From: Apiotrichum sp. Y4204 | Taxonomy: Eukaryota > Basidiomycota > Tremellomycetes > Trichosporonales > Trichosporonaceae | NCBI GenBank assembly: GCA_025531455.1 | Contig: JAMYHL010000017.1 | Location: 372,001-436,000 of the forward strand | DNA: 64,000 bases | Direction: 5' to 3' | Shown: piece by piece, positions 10,594-58,547 of the stretch | Layout of the letters: the number at the start of each line of letters is the position of its first letter | How positions within the stretch are numbered: the first letter of the stretch is position 1 | The notes under the pieces: generated by a model | The model's input: only the letters and a program-made list of their open reading frames with translations | What the model was told of the DNA's origin: nothing | Database searches by the model: none | Translations under genes and position numbers: made by a program

Positions 10594-10692
10594 TCTCCCA
10601 ACCCTGATTCGAACAGGGGACCGACGGTTATGAGCTCGACACTCGGAGGTAACAGTTACAGTCCGGCGCTCTACCAACTGAGCTATTAAGAG
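10594..10692 (-). tRNA. tRNA-Tyr (GTA) with an intron
   Basis: On the minus strand the acceptor strand CTCTTAA pairs with TTGGGAG (two G-T wobbles), giving the C1-G72 pair characteristic of eukaryotic tRNA-Tyr. The D arm is GCTC/GAGC and the T arm is CCCTG TTCGAAT CAGGG. The anticodon loop begins CTGTAA (anticodon GTA). Aligning with tRNA-Tyr convention gives a 37-nt 5' exon (10692-10656), a 26-nt intron (10655-10630) and a 36-nt 3' exon (10629-10594). The odd feature is the anticodon stem: CCGGA faces ACCGT, giving only three Watson-Crick pairs flanked by C-T and A-A mismatches. It may be a divergent functional gene or a decaying copy. Confidence 0.75.
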
Positions 10693-44414: not shown

Positions 44415-44500
44415 GCCCCGTTAGCTCAGTGGTAGAGCGTGTCACTAGTACCCAATCAGCGGGCATGACAAGGTCAGTCGTTCAAGTCGGCTACGGGGCA
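44415..44500 (+). tRNA. tRNA-Thr (AGT) with 14-nt intron, copy 1
   Basis: Full cloverleaf: acceptor GCCCCGT/ACGGGGC with discriminator A, D arm GCTC/GAGC, anticodon stem TGTCA/TGACA, variable loop AGGTC, T arm AGTCG TTCAAGT CGGCT. The loop reads CT-AGT-A, so the anticodon is AGT. The intron after position 37 is 44451-44464. Exons are identical to copy 2 at 58466. A T5 terminator follows. Confidence 0.95.
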
Positions 44501-45462: not shown

Positions 45463-47069
45463 ATGCTCCGCTCCAGGATCCAGTCGGGCCTCGTCGCCGC
45501 CGTTCGCACTGCCGAGCTCCGTGGTGAGTGCGACAGTGGAGAGTGCGTGCATGGAAGGGAGACGATTACGTGCAAGGATGCGATTTACGATCCGCGACGG
45601 ACTCCCCACTCCCCGATATGCCGCACCTCGCACTTTGGCTTGTTCGGCGACAGCACACAAGTGAAGAGCCTGTTAGCTGACCACCAGCTCCCCGCGCGCT
45701 CGCTGCGGCCCCCAAGGCTGCGCGCACGTTTGCGTCGCGCCCCCAGCCTGCCCGCGTCGCCATGCTCACCCCCTCGGTGATGGGCGCTGTTCGCGGCTAC
45801 GCTGAGGCGAGCGGCCGTTTCTCGCGTGCCAAGCCGCACTTCAACATTGGCACGATCGGCCACGTCGACCACGGCAAGACGACGCTCACTGCCGCGATCA
45901 CCAAGCACCTCGCTGAGGCTGGTGGCGCCCAGTTTATGGACTACTCGCAGATTGACAAGGCGCCCGAAGAGAAGGCGCGTGGTATCACCATCTCGACCTC
46001 GCACGTCGAGTACGAGACCCCCAACCGCCACTACGCCCACATTGACTGCCCCGGTCACGCTGATTACATCAAGAACATGATCACCGGTGCGGCGCAGCTC
46101 GACGGCGCGATCATTGTCGTCTCGGCTACCGACGGCCAGATGCCCCAGACCCGCGAGCACCTGCTCCTCGCCCGCCAGGTCGGCATCAAGAAGCTTCTTG
46201 TGTTCATCAACAAGGTCGACCAGGTCGACGACCCCGAGATGCTCGAGCTCGTCGAGATGGAGATGCGCGAGCTCCTCTCCGAGTACGGCTACGACGGCGA
46301 CGACACCCCCATTGTCATGGGTTCGGCGCTCTCCGCCCTCGAGGGCCGCGACCCCGAGCGTGGTGCCCAGAAGATTGCCGAGCTCATGGAGGCCGCCGAC
46401 ACCTGGCTCGACCTCCCCGAGCGTGACCTCGACAAGCCCTTCCTCATGTTTGTCGAGGACGTCTTCTCCATCTCGGGCCGTGGAACTGTCGCCACCGGCA
46501 AGGTCGAGCGCGGCACCGTCACCAAGGGTTCCGAGGTCGAGGTCGTCGGCATGGGCAACACCTTCAAGACCACCCTCACCGGTATCGAGATGTTCCACAA
46601 GGAGCTCGAGCGCGGAGAGGCCGGTGACAACATGGGTGCCCTCCTCCGTGGTGTCAAGCGTGAGCAGGTCCGCCGTGGCCAGGTCCTCGCCGCCCCCGGC
46701 TCGATCAAGTCGGTCAAGAAGTTCAAGGCCCAGATCTACGTGAGTAGCCGCTGCGCGGCCTTTGTTGCTACCCTCCTGCCCAGTTACTAACCCTCCCAGG
46801 TCCTCACCAAGGAGGAGGGTGGCCGTCTTACTCCCTTCATGGCCAACTACCGCCCCCAGCTCTTCATCCGCACGACCGACGTGACCGTCGCCCTCACCTT
46901 CCCTGAGGGCACCCCGGACGCGCACGAGAAGCTCGTCATGCCCGGAGACAACGTCGAGCTCATCGGCGACCTCGTCACCGACATTGCCCTCGAGCCCGGA
47001 ACCCGCTTCACCCTCCGTGAGGGCGGCCGCACCATCGGCACCGGTATCGTCGACACCATCATCGAGTAA
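45463..47069 (+). CDS. TUF1: Mitochondrial translation elongation factor Tu
   Basis: Delivers aminoacyl-tRNA to the mitochondrial ribosome. Predicted 460 residues. Exons are 45463-45523, 45688-46739 and 46800-47069. The N-terminal ~65 residues are rich in Arg and Ala without acidic clusters, a mitochondrial presequence, and intron 1 (164 nt) interrupts it. GTP-binding motifs are complete: GHVDHGKT (residues 78-85), the switch I segment [19 protein letters not shown] and SALSALEG. Domains 2 and 3 follow in order, with [13 protein letters not shown] and RTTDVTV, ending TGIVDTIIE. Codon use is strongly biased to C-ending codons, as expected for high expression. Confidence 0.97.
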
Positions 47070-47876
47070 TCGAGTAGAATCGGTGTTTGATGGCTGCTGA
47101 ACGAGCAAAAATTGCCGCGAGGGCACCCCCTATTCCCGATCCATGTCCCTACCGCTATCTGGAATGTTCTCGCGGGCTAGTACGAGTCTGTAGGTAGAGG
47201 TGTACACTAAGCAATGCATTACGCCACTCATTGGACTATTCGCCACGGGTCGTGGGAGATGTGGTAGCGTACGGAGCTGTGGTTGGGGTGCGGGGGCGTT
47301 GCTGCGGTTATCGTTTGGTGGCAAGCGTGTGAGACTGACAGCGAGCCCAGCCAAAGTTGCATTTGGGCAGCCGTTGGTAGCGACGACGACGAAATATCCC
47401 GCATGAGCGGTTTCTTGCACTTCTGGATCCTGGGGACGTCTGGGCCAGACACGTACTGACATGTACATGTGAGGGAATTAGGTCGAGGGCCATTCCTGGT
47501 CGACCTGCGCGAGTTATATGGACTTTGGATCGTGGAATGGCTGATCCAGACCACGGGCCGAGCGAGTGTTGCTGCGATTGTCAGTTTCGTTGACACAACC
47601 TCTCTAACGCGTTGTTCATCGTCACGCCTATCCGAGGGGGGAGCGTAGACTCTTAATGTCACCTCAATCTCAGGGTGGTTTGCAACTGCATAGTGTCTCC
47701 TTGCCAACTTGATCTTGCGGCGACACTGAGACGTTGCGGTCTAGAAGAGGTCTGTCAAGCTGATACGTTTTGACTTTGTTATCGACAAGCGCCTGGATTC
47801 TTGTGGTCCCTAAAAGAGGATGCATTGACTTTCGACGTATCGTACAACAGATTTGCAACAAGGAGAGTTCGAATGA
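47070..47876. other. Convergent intergenic region
   Basis: 807 bp between the stops of TUF1 and the FAM50 gene. No feature was recognised. Confidence 0.5.
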
Positions 47877-49177
47877 CTACGATATGCTCTGACAAGGTTA
47901 GACAGAACAACACCCAATGCTGTATCACTCACGTAGCCTCCATAGTCCTTGTCCGGGTCGTACACCTCCCACCGAGAGGCGGGAAAGATCTGAATGTCAG
48001 CTTAGGATCCAGTGGTCGGAAGCGGACTCACGTGCTTGTTTCGGTTGTACCAGGTGCGCTCGACGACCTTGCCCGCGTGACTCTCATCCTTTTCCTTTGT
48101 GGCATCTGCCAACATGCGCACATCGTCGTGGACGTCAAAGTTGAACAACGGTCCAGATTTCCCGCGCGCCTTATTGATGATAAAGTCGTAGAATGTATAG
48201 TGCTGGGGTTAGGTCTCATCATTCCTTCACACCTACGTGAGGGATAATGAGGTCTTCCTGCTCGATTAGCTCTGATCCATTTCCTTCCTCACCTTGATGT
48301 ACATCAAATTGTCAATGCTGGTCCCTCGTAGTTCCGGAACTTGAGACCGACATTTGGCAAGGAAGCCGGCAATGTCGTCCCCTTTCTTGCACTGGTGGGT
48401 TAGCATTCCGGACCGGACGAGGCACCCACGTCAACGACTTTTCGATGTCCGCTGCCGTCCCAGTACGAATATGTGATCTCGATAACTTCCTCCTTGATGC
48501 GCTCCTGGGCAGCAAGCCAGTTTTTGCGCAGCTCTTCCCGCTCGGCACGCTCCAGCGCCTCCCGCTCGCGATCAGGAAGAAACGATGTGTCAACGTCCGG
48601 ATTCTTCGTAAACTTCTTTTTGGCAACCGCAGAGTCTGCAATGAGCTATTCCAGTGTCTTAGGGAAGCTCACCATCGTCATCTCGAGGGCGTTTCTCCCC
48701 AACGCTAGCCTCGTCTTCCCCCTCCCCATCAAACATGAAGGAGAGCTTGGAACGCTCCTTCTTCTTCTGCTTCTTCGCACGCTTGGCACTGGCACTGTGG
48801 GGTATAAGCACTCGTGCATTTAGCTTCCACATACGCTTTAGATTCCACAGTTTTGGCAGCAAGCTTGCGCTGTTCTTCCTCGATCTCCTCCTTGGTTTTC
48901 CGGAAGTCCTCGAGGGTAACGAGACCGACGGTCGACTTGATCAGCTGTTCATCGATACTCTCGGCTGTGGATTTAAATTTTCCAGGCGTGTAGTCGAGTT
49001 GAGGTTCCTACGAGTCAGCGAGTGTAGGTAAGAATAGGGAGGGCGACTAACCTTCGCGGCTGTGTCTTCCTTTCTCCGTTCATTCTGCGATACCTGACAA
49101 TGAGCTTCAGCCGACGCCAGCAAGCTCACCATGCCGGAGGACAAGCGCGGTAGCTCTTCTGACCCGTTTGCTGCCAT
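47877..49177 (-). CDS. FAM50/XAP5 family protein
   Basis: Predicted 316-residue nuclear protein. FAM50/XAP5 members associate with spliceosomes and chromatin. There are ten exons in coding order: 49177-49130, 49093-49052, 49007-48835, 48794-48673, 48635-48430, 48391-48293, 48257-48237 (21 nt), 48202-48032, 47989-47933 and 47888-47877 (12 nt including stop). The C-terminal XAP5 domain is unmistakable: [35 protein letters not shown] across three exons, [38 protein letters not shown] and [12 protein letters not shown]. The middle has a basic [13 protein letters not shown] block, probably a nuclear signal. Introns are 37-44 nt in most cases. The tiny last exon adds only Ser-Ile-Ser. Confidence 0.92.
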
Positions 49178-49983
49178 ATCTGTAACGTGGCAGATCAGGA
49201 TATGGTTACAATGTTAAAGGGCGGTGATACTGATAGAGATGTAAGTGATGGACAAGAATCGATCGACAACTTGAGGAGATCTGAACATTCTCCGAACAAC
49301 CTGGGGGACCGGAGGAGGGAAGGCTGCACAAACAGAACAAGAAGGTGGAGGTCAGATACATGTCACGTGATTTCTGCTCCACCCAAAAGAAGAAAACGGG
49401 AGAAAATGGACAAAAAGAAGGGGCTAGAAAAATAAAATTCTGGTGCATTTTGCTTGTTCAGCCAGGAGCGTGGGTGGATCCAAACACTGGCGCTGTTGCC
49501 ATTGACGCGCGCGCTTGGGTTGCCAGCCCTCTCTCGTCACCGTGTTTGTGCTGTTTCGTGACGAAGGTCTGAAGAAAAAGGAGGGACGTGTGGCAAGGAC
49601 AATGGTGCGCATACTGCGTATGCATGCATGCTTGATAGCATGAAAGCATTGCGCTTCTGCTGACTAAGATGCAAGAGGCTGCGGTTGAGGAATGCATGGG
49701 GGGGAAGGTGCTGTAGTGACCACACTCGTGCCCTGCGTGTGTGCTGTGCGTGCCCTGGCTCTGCTCTGGCTGGCTGGGGTGGGGGAGCGGAGGCAGAGAG
49801 GAAGGCACAAAATCCACCACCGACTGGCACCACCACTGTGCCACACACCACGCTGACAGAATCTCGTCGTCACAAAACCTCCTTTCGTCGCCACCACTCG
49901 AGCACTTCTCTCTTGCTCTTTCCTATTCTCCCTCTACACAAAAACACTCTCTTTACGTCTCCCCCCATCACCACTAATCAAAA
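49178..49983. promoter_or_regulatory. Divergent promoter region, FAM50 / Ran
   Basis: 806 bp between divergent starts. The 130 bp before Ran are CT-rich with ACAC and TTCTCCC words. No other feature was seen. Confidence 0.5.
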
Positions 49984-51674
49984 ATGTCCAACGACCCCGT
50001 GGCCGCTACCTTCAAGCTCGTCCTCTGTGGTGACGGTGGAACCGTAAGTAAATTCTGTGGTTCAGGCGACTGCGAGAGAGGAACTCGATTGAGTGTTGTG
50101 TTGGTGATTGGTGATTGGAAACAAAGCTCGCGCATGCTCTTTGCCCGTCTATCCCACCTGCATTCTTCGCCACCCGCTCTTCCTTCTCGCATCTCTGGAT
50201 CACACCTTCAAGTGGGACCGCTTGGATAGTCGCTGACACGTCCACAGGGTACGCAAACTTGACGCTACAAACGCAACGCCCATACTGACATGTTTCTTCG
50301 CATTTTTGCTATCCTACAGGCAAGGTGAGTGGAGCTCCCTGGACTCCGTTACGGCGCAAAAACACCGAGCACCTGCAGTGGCTGACACGTACACAGACCA
50401 CCTTCGTCAAGCGCCACCTTACCGGTGTGTAGACCCTTGCACCCCGAAGTGCATCAGAGATCTGTATGCTGACGGCCTCAGGCGAGTTCGAGAAGAAGTA
50501 CATCGGTACGCATCGTCATACTCGGGCCTTCATGACGAAACATGCTAACAGAGACCAGCTACCCTCGGTGTCGAGGTTCACCCCCTCAAGTTCCAGACCT
50601 CTTACGTGCGTATCGTATGCCGAAGAATCCACACCGCGGGCGTTGAGGGTGGTTGAGCGGTGCCCGCGACGTGCTGGGAAGTGGACAGTGTTTGGGCCGC
50701 GATAACTTTTACGCGGATACCCAGCGCACGCGACCTTCTATCCGTGCCGCCCCAGACCACAATGACGAGCGTGACTCTTTAGCATCGCGAACGGCGCGGC
50801 TGGATGAGCTCTCGAACTTGTGAGGGACACAATGTCCAGGCTCAGTCCGCGAGAAAGAGTGCTTGCCACTACGGCCTCACGATGTTCCTGGATTCGCCAG
50901 AAATGATGCGGTTCTGCGAATTTCTTGGTTCCGATCAGGACGTCTGGCCGAACCGGCTCGTCCGAATCCACTAAGAGCGGCCGCTGCATACCTCACGTGG
51001 GCACCTCTCCTCACCACTGCGCGCCGTCCAACTATCCCAACAGTCTTGATAAGACCTTAATCGCACATACTAACATTCGCAGGGCACCATCTGCTTCAAC
51101 GTCTGGGACACCGCTGGCCAGGAGAAGTTCGGTGGTCTCCGTGATGGCTACTACATCCAGGGCCAGTGCGGTATCATCATGTTCGACGTTACCTCGCGTA
51201 TCACCTACAAGAACGTCCCCAACTGGTACCGTGACCTCGAGCGTGTCTGCGAGAACATCCCCATCGTTCTCTGCGGCAACAAGGTCGACGTCAAGGTGGG
51301 TTCAAATGAGATGTTCTTTCGCCTCGGATCTCTGGCTGACCCTTACAGGAGCGCAAGGTGAAGACCGCCAGCGTCACCTTCCACCGCAAGAGTGAGTCCA
51401 CCAAGAATCTGTTTTGGCCACCAGGTGGCAAACGCTAACCAATCCAGAGAACCTCCAGTACTTCGAGATCTCGGCCAAGTCCAACTACAACTTCGAGAAG
51501 CCCTTCCTCTGGCTCGCCCGTAAGCTCGTTGGCAACCAGCAGCTTGAGTTCGTTGCCGAGGCTGCCCTTGCCCCGCCCGACGTTGTGGTCTCGGAGGAGA
51601 CCAAGGCGCAGATCGAGCGCGACCTCCAGGACGCGCTGAATGCCCCTCTCCCCGACGAGGACGACGACCTTTAG
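49984..51674 (+). CDS. GSP1: Ran GTPase (nuclear transport), with a 1-nt exon
   Basis: Small GTPase driving nucleocytoplasmic transport and spindle assembly. Predicted 215 residues, normal for Ran. Nine exons: 49984-50043, 50248-50248 (1 nt), 50320-50324 (5 nt), 50397-50424, 50482-50505, 50559-50605, 51083-51295, 51349-51391 and 51448-51674. Motifs after splicing are P-loop GDGGTGKT (16-23), [10 protein letters not shown] switch [13 protein letters not shown] switch II, NKVD, and [19 protein letters not shown]; the tail ends DEDDDL. Exon 1 ends at Thr20 (ACC). The next codons GGC AAG (Gly21-Lys22) are available only as G50248 plus GCAAG at 50320. The single G is framed by a canonical acceptor (CTGACACGTCCACAG) and donor (GTACGC). 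Intron 6 is 477 nt. No other combination of GT-AG sites I tried restores the P-loop. Confidence 0.95.
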
Positions 51675-52092
51675 AGTGCTTCCATCCCTTCCGCATTTAC
51701 GCCGCAACGACAATCGGCGCCTCATAGTTGTGTAGTCATGTGTCGAGCCATGAATCTCTGCATGCTACTGATCTCAAATTCAAGATATCGAAATGGTGCT
51801 GCTGATGTGGGGAGTGAGCTGATCGAGGAGTGAGCCGTGGTGATCCTACAGGGTCAAGAGTCCATAGATTTCCGTAGTCTTTTCCATAGATCTCCGTAGC
51901 CGAATGTGTTAGGCAAGTCTTCCTCAGCCGGATTGTCTCTGCCTAGATGGAGTGATTGCCCTTGGAAAAATCACTGCACAGATGTCTGGTGTGGTACGCT
52001 CTCCTCGTCGCCATTTAGCAACAAGCGACGCGTTGCACTCTCCCGATTATCAATGAATTGTGCATGCAATATTCTACTCTCCTAGCTCTTCT
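51675..52092. other. Convergent intergenic region
   Basis: 418 bp between the Ran and COX20 stops. It has an imperfect direct repeat of a CCATAGATTTCCGTAG-type word (about 51870-51902). Nothing else was recognised. Confidence 0.5.
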
Positions 52093-52990
52093 CTACACCT
52101 GCCGCTCTGCGCCTCCCTCGGGGTGCGCCGTGCTGCTCGGCGGCGGCGTCCAGTCGGCGCCCCGCGCCTTGAGGTTGGACACATGACGGTGCGGGAACCG
52201 CTCCTGGATCAGACGCATCTGCGCCAGCTCCTTCTCCCGCGCAGAGTTACATGTCTCCCTAAACAGTCAGCAACTTCTGTAGCTCTGGGGAGTATTGCAC
52301 GCTCTGTCACTTACCAGGTGGCGATGGCGATTCCGCAGAAAGCCGCGACCGCCCAGTTGGCTGCGCTCTTGGGGCCTGTCGTCAGCATACCTGGGCGTAG
52401 GGAGCGCCTTCGGGGCACGGATGGGTGAGGTAACGGATACTGGTGGTTTTCCAGCAGACCGGCAATCACTGGCCACTGGTGGAAGACAAGTCACCCATCC
52501 TTCTGAACCCCGCCGCAACACTCACGCTGGCTGCCAATAAACCGCACCGCACCGATCGCGGTGCCGCCGCCAATCGCGTACAGCAGCGAGTCGCGCGCGC
52601 AGGGTACCTGGCCGAGGTTCTTAAAGTCCTCGATGGGCTTTATGCTCTGTAGAGTTAGAGGAAGAGCGGGGAACGGGGTGGTGTTAATGATCAAAGATCA
52701 GATGTTGTCCGCGAGAGGTACAGTTGTGCCAGAAGGCCGCTTGATGGACGTGAAACAACAGTGCACAAGCCTGGGTCGGCCCCCCGAGACAGATAATACT
52801 ATTTCCAGCCAAGCTACTGGTCCTCCCGCCAGAGCTCGCATTTGCCACTCACCGAGATCGCAGCCTTGTAATCAGCCGTCGACGCCTCCTCGCCATTGAT
52901 ATACCGCGTTGGCGCGACGGGCGCGCCCGACTCGGGCGTGACGGGGCTGTTCCCCGCGGGAATGTTGAGCGTGGGCTTGTTCTCGGCCAT
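52093..52990 (-). CDS. COX20: Cytochrome c oxidase assembly protein COX20
   Basis: Inner-membrane chaperone for the Cox2 subunit during complex IV assembly. Predicted 161 residues. Exons in coding order are 52990-52853, 52646-52526, 52375-52315 and 52258-52093. The conserved core is present: EDFKNLGQVPCARDSLLYAI with its invariant PC, a first hydrophobic segment (SLLYAIGGGTAIGAVRFIG), a second (AANWAVAAFCGIAIATW) and the following WETCNSAREKELAQMR. Two membrane spans with both ends in the intermembrane space match the family. The Pro/Thr-rich N-terminus (first 40 residues) carries no strong presequence, as is usual for COX20. Head-to-head with COG2 across 320 bp. Confidence 0.87.
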
Positions 52991-53310
52991 GGCGAAGAAT
53001 AGAGCGAGGTATGAGAATTAGGAAGTGCCGAGAGTTGTTCGTTGTTCGCTATCGATTTCGACGCGCGCGATACTTGTTACGTCTTGGTGAGTATGGTCCC
53101 GAAAAGTCCGTGAGTGCCGAGGCCGAGACGGGTTGCTCCAAGATGCAGGAGGGAGAGGTCACGTGATATTATCAGGAAGCAGAGGCACGGAGTATGGTCC
53201 GTTGTCCGCCCGCCACGCTCGAGGTCCTCGTCGCGCTCGTCGTCATGGGCCAGAAAGGTCAAGGTGTAGCTCGTGCAGATTGACAGATATCATCCCACGA
53301 CACGCCTCCG
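52991..53310. promoter_or_regulatory. Bidirectional promoter, COX20 / COG2
   Basis: 320 bp between divergent starts. CGACGCGCGCG and TACTTGTTACGTC words lie near 53060-53085. No operator was assigned. Confidence 0.5.
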
Positions 53311-55539
53311 ATGGCCGATGACGCCGAACCGCCACGCGCGGACTCGCCCTCCGGCTCCTCGACGGTGGGCCACTCGCTCGACCTCCCCTCCCTCCTCCCG
53401 CTAAGCCACAACCACCCACTGCTCCTAGCGCCGACATTTGATGTCGACGCGTTCCTCCTCTCGCGCATCCACATTCCGCTCGACGAGCTGCGCGCCGAGT
53501 TGAGAGAGTATCTTGGCGTGCTGAGGGAAGAGCTTGTGCAGCTCATTAATGACGATTATGAGGAGTTTATCTCGCTCGGGACGGGGTTGAGAGGAGAGAA
53601 CGATCGGTTGAAGCGGTTGAAGAAGCCTTTAGGCCAGCTCCGAGCCGATGTCACTGTGAGTATCCTCAACGGCGGCTATAGCGTATTGTCATCGCTGCGA
53701 AGACGCAAAGCAGTGGAGTAGCGGACACCAGTCATGCTACTGGTCCGCGATGCTGGAATACCTGAAGCCTGATGGAAGTCCGCGTCGGCTTTTTGTTTCT
53801 TTTCTGACAACCAGGCCGTCCGCGATGTTCTCAAGACTCACCAGGACGCAGTTCAGGCAAAGTTGGACGAGCGCGCTGCGTTGCGCGAGGAGAAGGCGCT
53901 CTTGGATCTCCTACAACGGCTGTTCGACGTGTTAACCCGTGCCGAGAGCTTGCAGGAGAGCAGCAGCAGCAAAGTGGTACCGCGCCTTGCGGGCGAGTAC
54001 ACACAGCTGGTGTATCTGCGGGACAAGGCGGCTGCGGAGGGGTGCGCGATTGTCGAGAGCGTGTCGCCGCGGATCAACGCCATTCGCACACGGCTGAGCG
54101 GTGACCTCAACTCGATCCTAACCGCCGCGCTCGAGGCCAAGGATGAGGCAGCGCTCAAGCAGTGTCTCAAGACGTACGATCTCGTCGAGGGGTGGAGCGA
54201 GGCGGAGGATGTCGTCCGCAAAGCCATCCGCGCGTTTTGCGTGCGCAATGTCATCCCGGCAGCGCTTACTGCCCCTTCGACTCCCACGGCACCCACCACG
54301 CCCGGGCTGCGCGGCTTCGACAAGCACAACCGCCTGGCGGAAGACTCGGCGCTGGCAGCAGTGTACAACAAGGTCCTGGCACACATCGAGACATACCTCC
54401 CACTCCTGACCATTGCGCACGCCGTCTCCCCCGAATTCGACTTTTTCTCCCGTGTCCTGTGGCCTGAGGTCGGCGTCGCGATCACCGACAATCTCGGCCA
54501 CATCATCTTCGCTGCTGGCCGTCCTGACGAGCTTCACAAGCATTACACCACGACACACAAATTCATGACCCTCTTTGAGACGTACGCGCGGACAGAGGAC
54601 GCCGTGCTCGCCATGCGCGCATCTGATTCCTACGCCGCGTTTGAGCGCCGCTGGCAGCTGCCAGTGTACTTCCAGTTGCGGTGGAAGGAGATTGTCACGG
54701 CGTTTGAGGGAGCCCTCGCGCAGCCCAGCGCGCCAGCAGCCTCCGGCTCCGGATTTGCCCTTCAGCAGTCCGCAGCGGCATGGGAGGCATTCCGGCAATG
54801 CTGGGCGCCTGAGATCTACCTCCCGGAGCTCTCGCACCGCTTTTGGCGTCTCGCGCTCCAGATCCTCTCGCGGTACGCCTCGTGGCTCCAGACCGCACTT
54901 GCAGGGTTCAAGGGCGAGTACGAGGACGAGACTGCGCTCAAGTTTGCCGCTTCTGCCGTGGCGGACATGGACGCGCTGCGTGTCCGGATAGACGACAACG
55001 CGCTCCTCGCCGAGCTGGGTGGCTTCCCGGTCGAACTGGACACTACGCCGTTTGCGGACCGCATTATTGGTATCCTTCAGCGCCGCTGCGCCGAGCCTGT
55101 CAAGGCAGTGCGTTCTGTGGCGTCGCAGATCCGAACATCCGCACCGAAAACCATCACGCCATCATACTTTATCCCGACGCTCCTCAAGCCTTTGCACGTC
55201 TTCTTCGACGCGCGGCCCGGTCTCGCGACAAAACACAAGCAGCAGTGGTCGACGGCCGTAGTCGCTCACGTCCTGGGGCAGTTTGCGAGTATCCTCGCTG
55301 CCGTGCGGCGGACAGAGGACCTCGTGCGACGGAACCGCAAGTCGCAGAAATCGGGCTTCTCCCTCTTCGGTACCGGCAGCGCGTCGACGCCAGACGCAGA
55401 GGTCGACGAGCGCCTCCGTAAGCAGCGGTTCACGGACGTCGAGGCGCTCGCGAAGGATGCGCGCTCCCTCGGCGTTGAGGTCGAGGCCTTGCCTACTTGG
55501 ACGGAGCTGAGGGATGTTTTGGATCGCGCGGATGAGTAG
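53311..55539 (+). CDS. COG2: Conserved oligomeric Golgi complex subunit 2
   Basis: Subunit of the COG tether in lobe A, needed for retrograde vesicle traffic within the Golgi. Predicted 689 residues. Exons are 53311-53655 and 53815-55539 with one 159-nt intron. The N-terminal COG2 signature reads FDVDAFLLSRIHIPLDELRA, then LREELVQLINDDYEEFISLG and heptad-type LKRLKKPLGQLRADV, expected to form the coiled-coil bundle. The remainder is helical, with PSYFIPTLLKPLHVFF toward the C-terminus, as in other COG2 proteins. No membrane segment; peripheral Golgi protein. Confidence 0.88.
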
Positions 55540-58465: not shown

Positions 58466-58547
58466 GCCCCGTTAGCTCAGTGGTAGAGCGTGTCACTAGT
58501 ATCTCAGGATCATGACAAGGTCAGTCGTTCAAGTCGGCTACGGGGCA
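58466..58547 (+). tRNA. tRNA-Thr (AGT) with 10-nt intron, copy 2
   Basis: Same cloverleaf and same exon sequence as copy 1 at 44415: acceptor GCCCCGT/ACGGGGC, anticodon stem TGTCA/TGACA, T loop TTCAAGT. The intron (58502-58511, TCTCAGGATC) differs in length and sequence from copy 1. A T5 terminator follows. Confidence 0.95.

Follow-up and report, generated by a model that had tools for sequence, protein, structure and literature searches.

A predicted one-nucleotide exon in the P-loop of the Ran GTPase gene of Apiotrichum sp. Y4204

Results

Structure of the Ran gene

We analyzed a 64,000-nt stretch of DNA from Apiotrichum sp. Y4204, hereafter the window. Exon joining and translation gave a nine-exon gene on the forward strand at 49984–51674, with a coding sequence of 648 nt and a product of 215 amino acids (Table 1). 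The translation contained GDGGTGKT, WDTAGQE, NKVD, and the terminal DEDDDL; we take this P-loop, the two internal motifs, and the acidic tail to be those of Ran. The best match of the spliced product to Ran/Gsp1 proteins of solved structures had an E-value of 8.3e-113 and covered residues 8–213 with the P-loop ungapped, and its Pfam Ras score was 162.7 bits. On the full-length match and these motifs, the predicted gene product is the Ran GTPase, the switch protein that drives nuclear import and export traffic. Intron 6 (50606–51082, 477 nt) was much longer than the remaining introns. An Rfam scan of the 64,000-nt window found no RNA family in the Ran introns, including intron 6; three tRNA matches were located in the window at 10594–10692 (−), 44415–44500 (+), and 58466–58547 (+).

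Table 1 Exons of the predicted Ran gene and the introns surrounding the two smallest exons
Feature	Position	Strand	Length (nt)	Remarks
Exon 1	49984–50043	+	60	last codon is Thr20 of GDGGT
Intron 1	50044–50247	+	204	donor GTAAGT; acceptor CACAG; single CTRAY motif with A at 50236
Exon 2 (predicted)	50248–50248	+	1	G, first base of the Gly21 codon; same in homeolog
Intron 2	50249–50319	+	71	donor GTACGC; acceptor CTACAG; CTGAC with A at 50288
Exon 3 (predicted)	50320–50324	+	5	GCAAG, remainder of Gly21 and Lys22
Intron 3	50325–50396	+	72	donor GTGAGT; acceptor CACAG; CTGAC with A at 50385
Exon 4	50397–50424	+	28	first codon is Thr23
Exon 5	50482–50505	+	24	next donor hexamer GTACGC, as after exon 2
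Exon 6	50559–50605	+	47	
Exon 7	51083–51295	+	213	
Exon 8	51349–51391	+	43	
Exon 9	51448–51674	+	227	includes stop; acidic DEDDDL end

Splice signals around the two small exons

Exon 1 terminates with GGAACC after a complete Thr20 codon, and exon 4 opens with a complete Thr23 codon; GCAAG, lying between them, is GGC AAG minus one base. The sequences at the junctions read GGAACC/GTAAGT (exon 1), CACAG/G/GTACGC (the lone G), CTACAG/GCAAG/GTGAGT (exon 3), and CACAG/ACCACC (exon 4). All the bases that the first-pass annotation had placed at 50043, 50248, 50320–50324, and 50397 were present, and its proposal that the lone G restores the frame and a 215-residue Ran agreed with the nine-exon translation, which has an intact GDGGTGKT.

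A CT[AG]A[CT] branch motif occurred once in each of the eight Ran introns. Its A lay 9–11 nt before the intron end in seven of them and 31 nt in intron 2, whose spacing thus departs from that of the other seven. The only such motif in the 204 nt of intron 1, CTGAC, sits 11 nt before its end, preceding the lone G. Since donor, branch motif, and acceptor are all present in each of the introns flanking G50248, both parts of the interval are complete introns.

A homeologous copy of the locus

The assembly (48.9 Mb, 182 contigs) contained many Ras-family matches in near-identical pairs. One contig (C24, 584001–654000; L010–L016) was collinear with window positions 1–64000 and differed from them by 5.1% substitutions at aligned sites over 46000–55000. 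Such paired genes and a collinear copy resemble those of a diploid or hybrid genome, and genomes of these kinds have been reported in Trichosporonales (PMC12820176). The homeologous Ran gene differed at 6 of 648 coding bases and encoded an identical protein. It preserved every donor, branch motif, and acceptor in introns 1–3 as well as the lone G and GCAAG, and was 91% identical over the 353-nt interval between exons 1 and 4. With the homeologs only about 5% apart, their sharing of five particular bases is not strong evidence alone. The 353-nt interval matched only itself and its homeolog in a genome-wide search, which gave no sign of a repeat or introner origin.

Introns 2 and 3, 143 nt together, had 2 substitutions and two gap positions, compared with 63 substitutions in 888 aligned sites in the other six introns (Fisher p 0.005). 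This low divergence is a hint of constraint next to the tiny exons, the grouping having been chosen post hoc and intron 5 being as little changed (1 substitution in 53).

Splicing routes that preserve the P-loop

We enumerated the GT-AG paths through 49984–50424 that have no more than three introns. With introns of at least 40 nt, 39,638 paths were obtained, three of which retained GxxxxGK[ST] joined to TFVKRHLTG; GDGGTGKT itself came from one path, the route through the one-nucleotide exon. When the minimum intron length was 30 nt, the pattern survived in 4 of 75,747 window paths and 3 of 72,942 homeolog paths, with a standard P-loop from a single path in each copy. When GC donors were also allowed and the number of introns was limited to two, none of the 28,378 paths passed. 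The one-nucleotide exon put forward in the first-pass annotation was therefore the sole canonical solution found for a normal P-loop in the window and the homeolog. That annotation had also held that all other GT-AG combinations break the frame or destroy the P-loop, which needs softening: the standard P-loop is unique to one path, but the few others that pass stay in frame and add residues inside or before the P-loop.

We consider it highly probable that G50248 is a real one-nucleotide exon, flanked by two complete U2-type introns and followed by a 5-nt exon; with the same high probability, Gly21-Lys22 of the Ran P-loop would be assembled from 1 + 5 nt. The predicted exon is probably constitutive. 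Dropping G50248 alone caused a frameshift and a stop at codon 130 (nt 387); because this stop precedes the last exon junction (nt 420), such an mRNA would probably be degraded. Dropping both small exons retained the frame and removed Gly-Lys, which should abolish nucleotide binding by the resulting Ran.

Four other explanations were weighed. A single noncanonical intron of 275 nt (50044–50318 with GT-CA ends, or 50045–50319 with TA-AG ends) would leave GGCAAG directly, and either version would produce the same mRNA. However, such ends occur in no other intron of the gene, and the complete acceptor with branch motif and donor at 50236–50254 would be left unexplained in both homeologs; we regard this explanation as very improbable. 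It is slightly less probable still that a base is missing from the assembly beside 50043 or 50320; such an error would account for the frame with no unusual exon, and the one-nucleotide exon would not exist. Against this, the homeologous contig has identical bases at all junctions, and the exact AG-G-GT signals would be a coincidence. Agreement between two diverged contigs on the G, GCAAG, and the splice signals makes a sequencing error unlikely, although the two share one assembly and are not fully independent data.

Replacement of the single G by a 10-nt exon (50094–50103) would give GDGGTCCVGKT; the frame is then open in both copies (the homeolog reads GDGGTCWVGKT), and the Pfam Ras score is still 156.6 bits versus 162.7. 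Nevertheless, no CTRAY branch motif occurs in 50044–50093, the acceptor is TTGAG, and the donor GTGATT has no G at +5. The three additional P-loop residues differ between the homeologs, and no such insertion was seen in 154 fetched relatives with an intact pattern (tallied for the first 120), leaving this exon a negligible chance. The same holds for a strict-sense spliceosomal twin intron, with an internal intron splitting an external splice signal: fungi do have nested or neighboring introns removed in turn (PMC5639578, PMC7138796), but complete loss of 50044–50319 would discard the G and shift the frame.

Chance expectation and rarity of the signals

Dinucleotide shuffling of the interval (4,000 versions) still gave a suitably placed bare AGGGT in 5.9% of cases, and overlapping segments cut from the window (2,550, real site included) had one in 12.9%, so that the pentamer by itself is weak evidence. 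When a pyrimidine-AG and an upstream branch motif were added, the frequencies were 0.45% of shuffles and 0.86% of segments; with a GTRNG donor, they were 0.025% and 0.27%. Once the second, downstream branch motif was required, no shuffle (0 of 4,000) and 0.16% of segments passed (real site included). In a base-by-base slide along both strands of the window, two sites passed the full signal test: 25178 (+) and the Ran site.

Across the 48.9-Mb genome, CTRAC-N4-8-YAG-G-GTRNG matched 31 sites (20 + 11), two of which were the Ran homeologs, whereas the reversed patterns gave 73 matches (44 + 29). A looser pattern gave 9 matches versus 23 reversed. Twenty of the 29 strict-signal sites outside Ran were examined automatically, and two homeologous pairs were read closely; no second one-nucleotide exon was recognized among these 20 of 29, an examination that does not amount to a survey. 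At one site (L024), an open frame runs through the signals, and its partner (L023) differs by an upstream one-base indel. The site shared by L027 and L028 was rejected as a one-nucleotide exon, being an ordinary exon starting with GG. The gene there, which from its WCGHCK motif we presume to encode a protein-disulfide-isomerase-like protein, has an exon of about 20 nt over that motif. Tiny exons in conserved motifs may thus not be limited to Ran in this genome.

Ran proteins of related fungi

Two protein searches, each represented by its best 120 of nearly 8,000 scored proteins, yielded 159 different proteins; the second used a profile of three relatives and contributed 39 new proteins among its 120. 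Among the fetched proteins, the spliced product was closest to Ran of Apiotrichum porosum (identity 0.909; 90%). The P-loop pattern was present in 154 of the 159 Ran-family proteins, including all 39 from the second search. Four of the five exceptions were relatives broken at Gly-Lys, and the other, from Vigna mungo (P0056), begins downstream of the P-loop. Proteins of A. porosum (P0004), Trichosporon asahii (P0060), and Kwoniella bestiolae (P0041) read GDGGT-TTFVK, with exactly Gly-Lys missing. That of Cutaneotrichosporon cavernicola (P0034) has other residues at this place, GDGGTSYNWIKADRAQTTFVK, in which KADRAQ would fit read-through of a GCTGAC...CAG intron end. The P-loop was complete in Naganishia (P0020) and Phaffia (P0006). 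Organism names follow the source records.

Since a P-loop GTPase lacking Gly-Lys should not bind nucleotide, the four defects are most simply annotation errors in which exon 1 was joined to the Thr23 exon, and such errors would imply introns on either side of the Gly-Lys codons in the relatives. A repeated annotation error is thereby indicated, with the P-loop Gly-Lys absent from or replaced in the public Ran models of four related fungi. Because these models fail at exactly Gly-Lys, tiny exons at this place are probably old and have been overlooked by gene prediction. The proteins of the relatives are as compatible with a single 6-nt exon as with 1 + 5, and a scan of viral contigs yielded no relative. 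We can suggest only tentatively, as the less favored possibility, that the tandem of 1-nt and 5-nt exons is an ancient Ran trait across Trichosporonales and perhaps further in Tremellomycetes. If it were, an essential GTPase would long have relied on splicing a single base in strict steps, and the occasional transcript that skipped both exons, still in frame, would produce a nucleotide-dead Ran.

Discussion

Here, we proposed that a one-base exon lies in the P-loop of a highly conserved eukaryotic GTPase, adjoining a five-base exon in a gene whose introns are mostly short. One-nucleotide exons are a known but very rare kind. The first-pass annotation had stressed this rarity and named a plant APC11 gene as the known case; the precedent is sound (PMC4674806), but APC11 is not alone, as one-nucleotide exons have also been reported in plant VPS55 (PMC8831610) and in CYP621A of Fusarium, the first in a fungal gene according to its authors (PMC12940212). 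A further case is reported in placozoan mitochondrial cox1. We consider the case for a one-nucleotide exon in Ran, as a putative member of this small class, to be strong.

CYP621A, as described, is the closest parallel in form: as in Ran, a single G in AGGGT lies within a conserved motif, is essential for the frame, and has introns on both sides, and the exon is conserved in orthologs (PMC12940212). The two differ in that CYP621A is an ascomycete P450 gene with reads from two species, whereas Ran is a basidiomycete housekeeping GTPase whose exon is predicted from sequence. In addition, the base is the middle of a Gly codon in CYP621A and the first of a Gly codon in Ran, and the 5-nt neighbor is a feature of Ran, unlike the described CYP621A gene (PMC12940212). 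APC11 and VPS55 resemble Ran as conserved genes of essential processes whose one-nucleotide exons were overlooked by annotation (PMC4674806, PMC8831610). These plant exons were confirmed by cDNA and reporters, whereas that of Ran is predicted from genomic DNA; the APC11 base is A rather than G, and in the parts of the two plant reports compared here no 5-nt neighbor is described (PMC4674806, PMC8831610). A tandem of 1-nt and 5-nt exons was not found described in the literature compared here. In open-licence PMC literature, a scope outside which subscription papers and preprints fall, no one-nucleotide exon was found in Ran or in a basidiomycete. The open-licence microexon literature on Cryptococcus, fungi, and Tremellomycetes gave nothing on Ran; in the portions consulted of two Cryptococcus papers, a microexon search is mentioned only as a mapping option.

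In recursive splicing of long introns, an acceptor adjoins a donor, stepwise removal is forced, and no base is kept; at the Ran site, the introns are 204 and 71 nt and one base would be retained. Such zero-length exons have been named alongside one-nucleotide exons (PMC4674806). Fungal stwintrons are like the Ran site in undergoing consecutive U2 splicing reactions at one spot, but the entire complex is removed and zero bases are left, whereas one base would stay in Ran (PMC5639578, PMC7138796).

The Ran locus offers a compact substrate for studying the order in which neighboring spliceosomes act and how they share adjoining sites. U1 pairs over the donor, and on GTACGC it would extend over about 50246–50254 and cover the AG of intron 1. 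Because a single base offers no room for two spliceosomes and U1 on this donor would hide that AG, introns 1 and 2 would most likely be removed in turn. If intron 1 were removed first, ACCG/GTACGC would be left, resembling the ATCG/GTACGC junction after exon 5; if intron 2 were removed first, CACAG/GGCAAG would be left, and both orders would end in an identical mRNA. Stepwise intron removal has also been proposed by the authors of the APC11 study (PMC4674806). As to origin, an older exon GGCAAG that gained intron 2 after its first base would have arrived at the present state; intron 2 is also the one with the deviant branch-point spacing. The ends of intron 1 (50228–50247) and intron 3 (50377–50396) were alike at 18 of 20 bases, a match that is possibly a local duplication.
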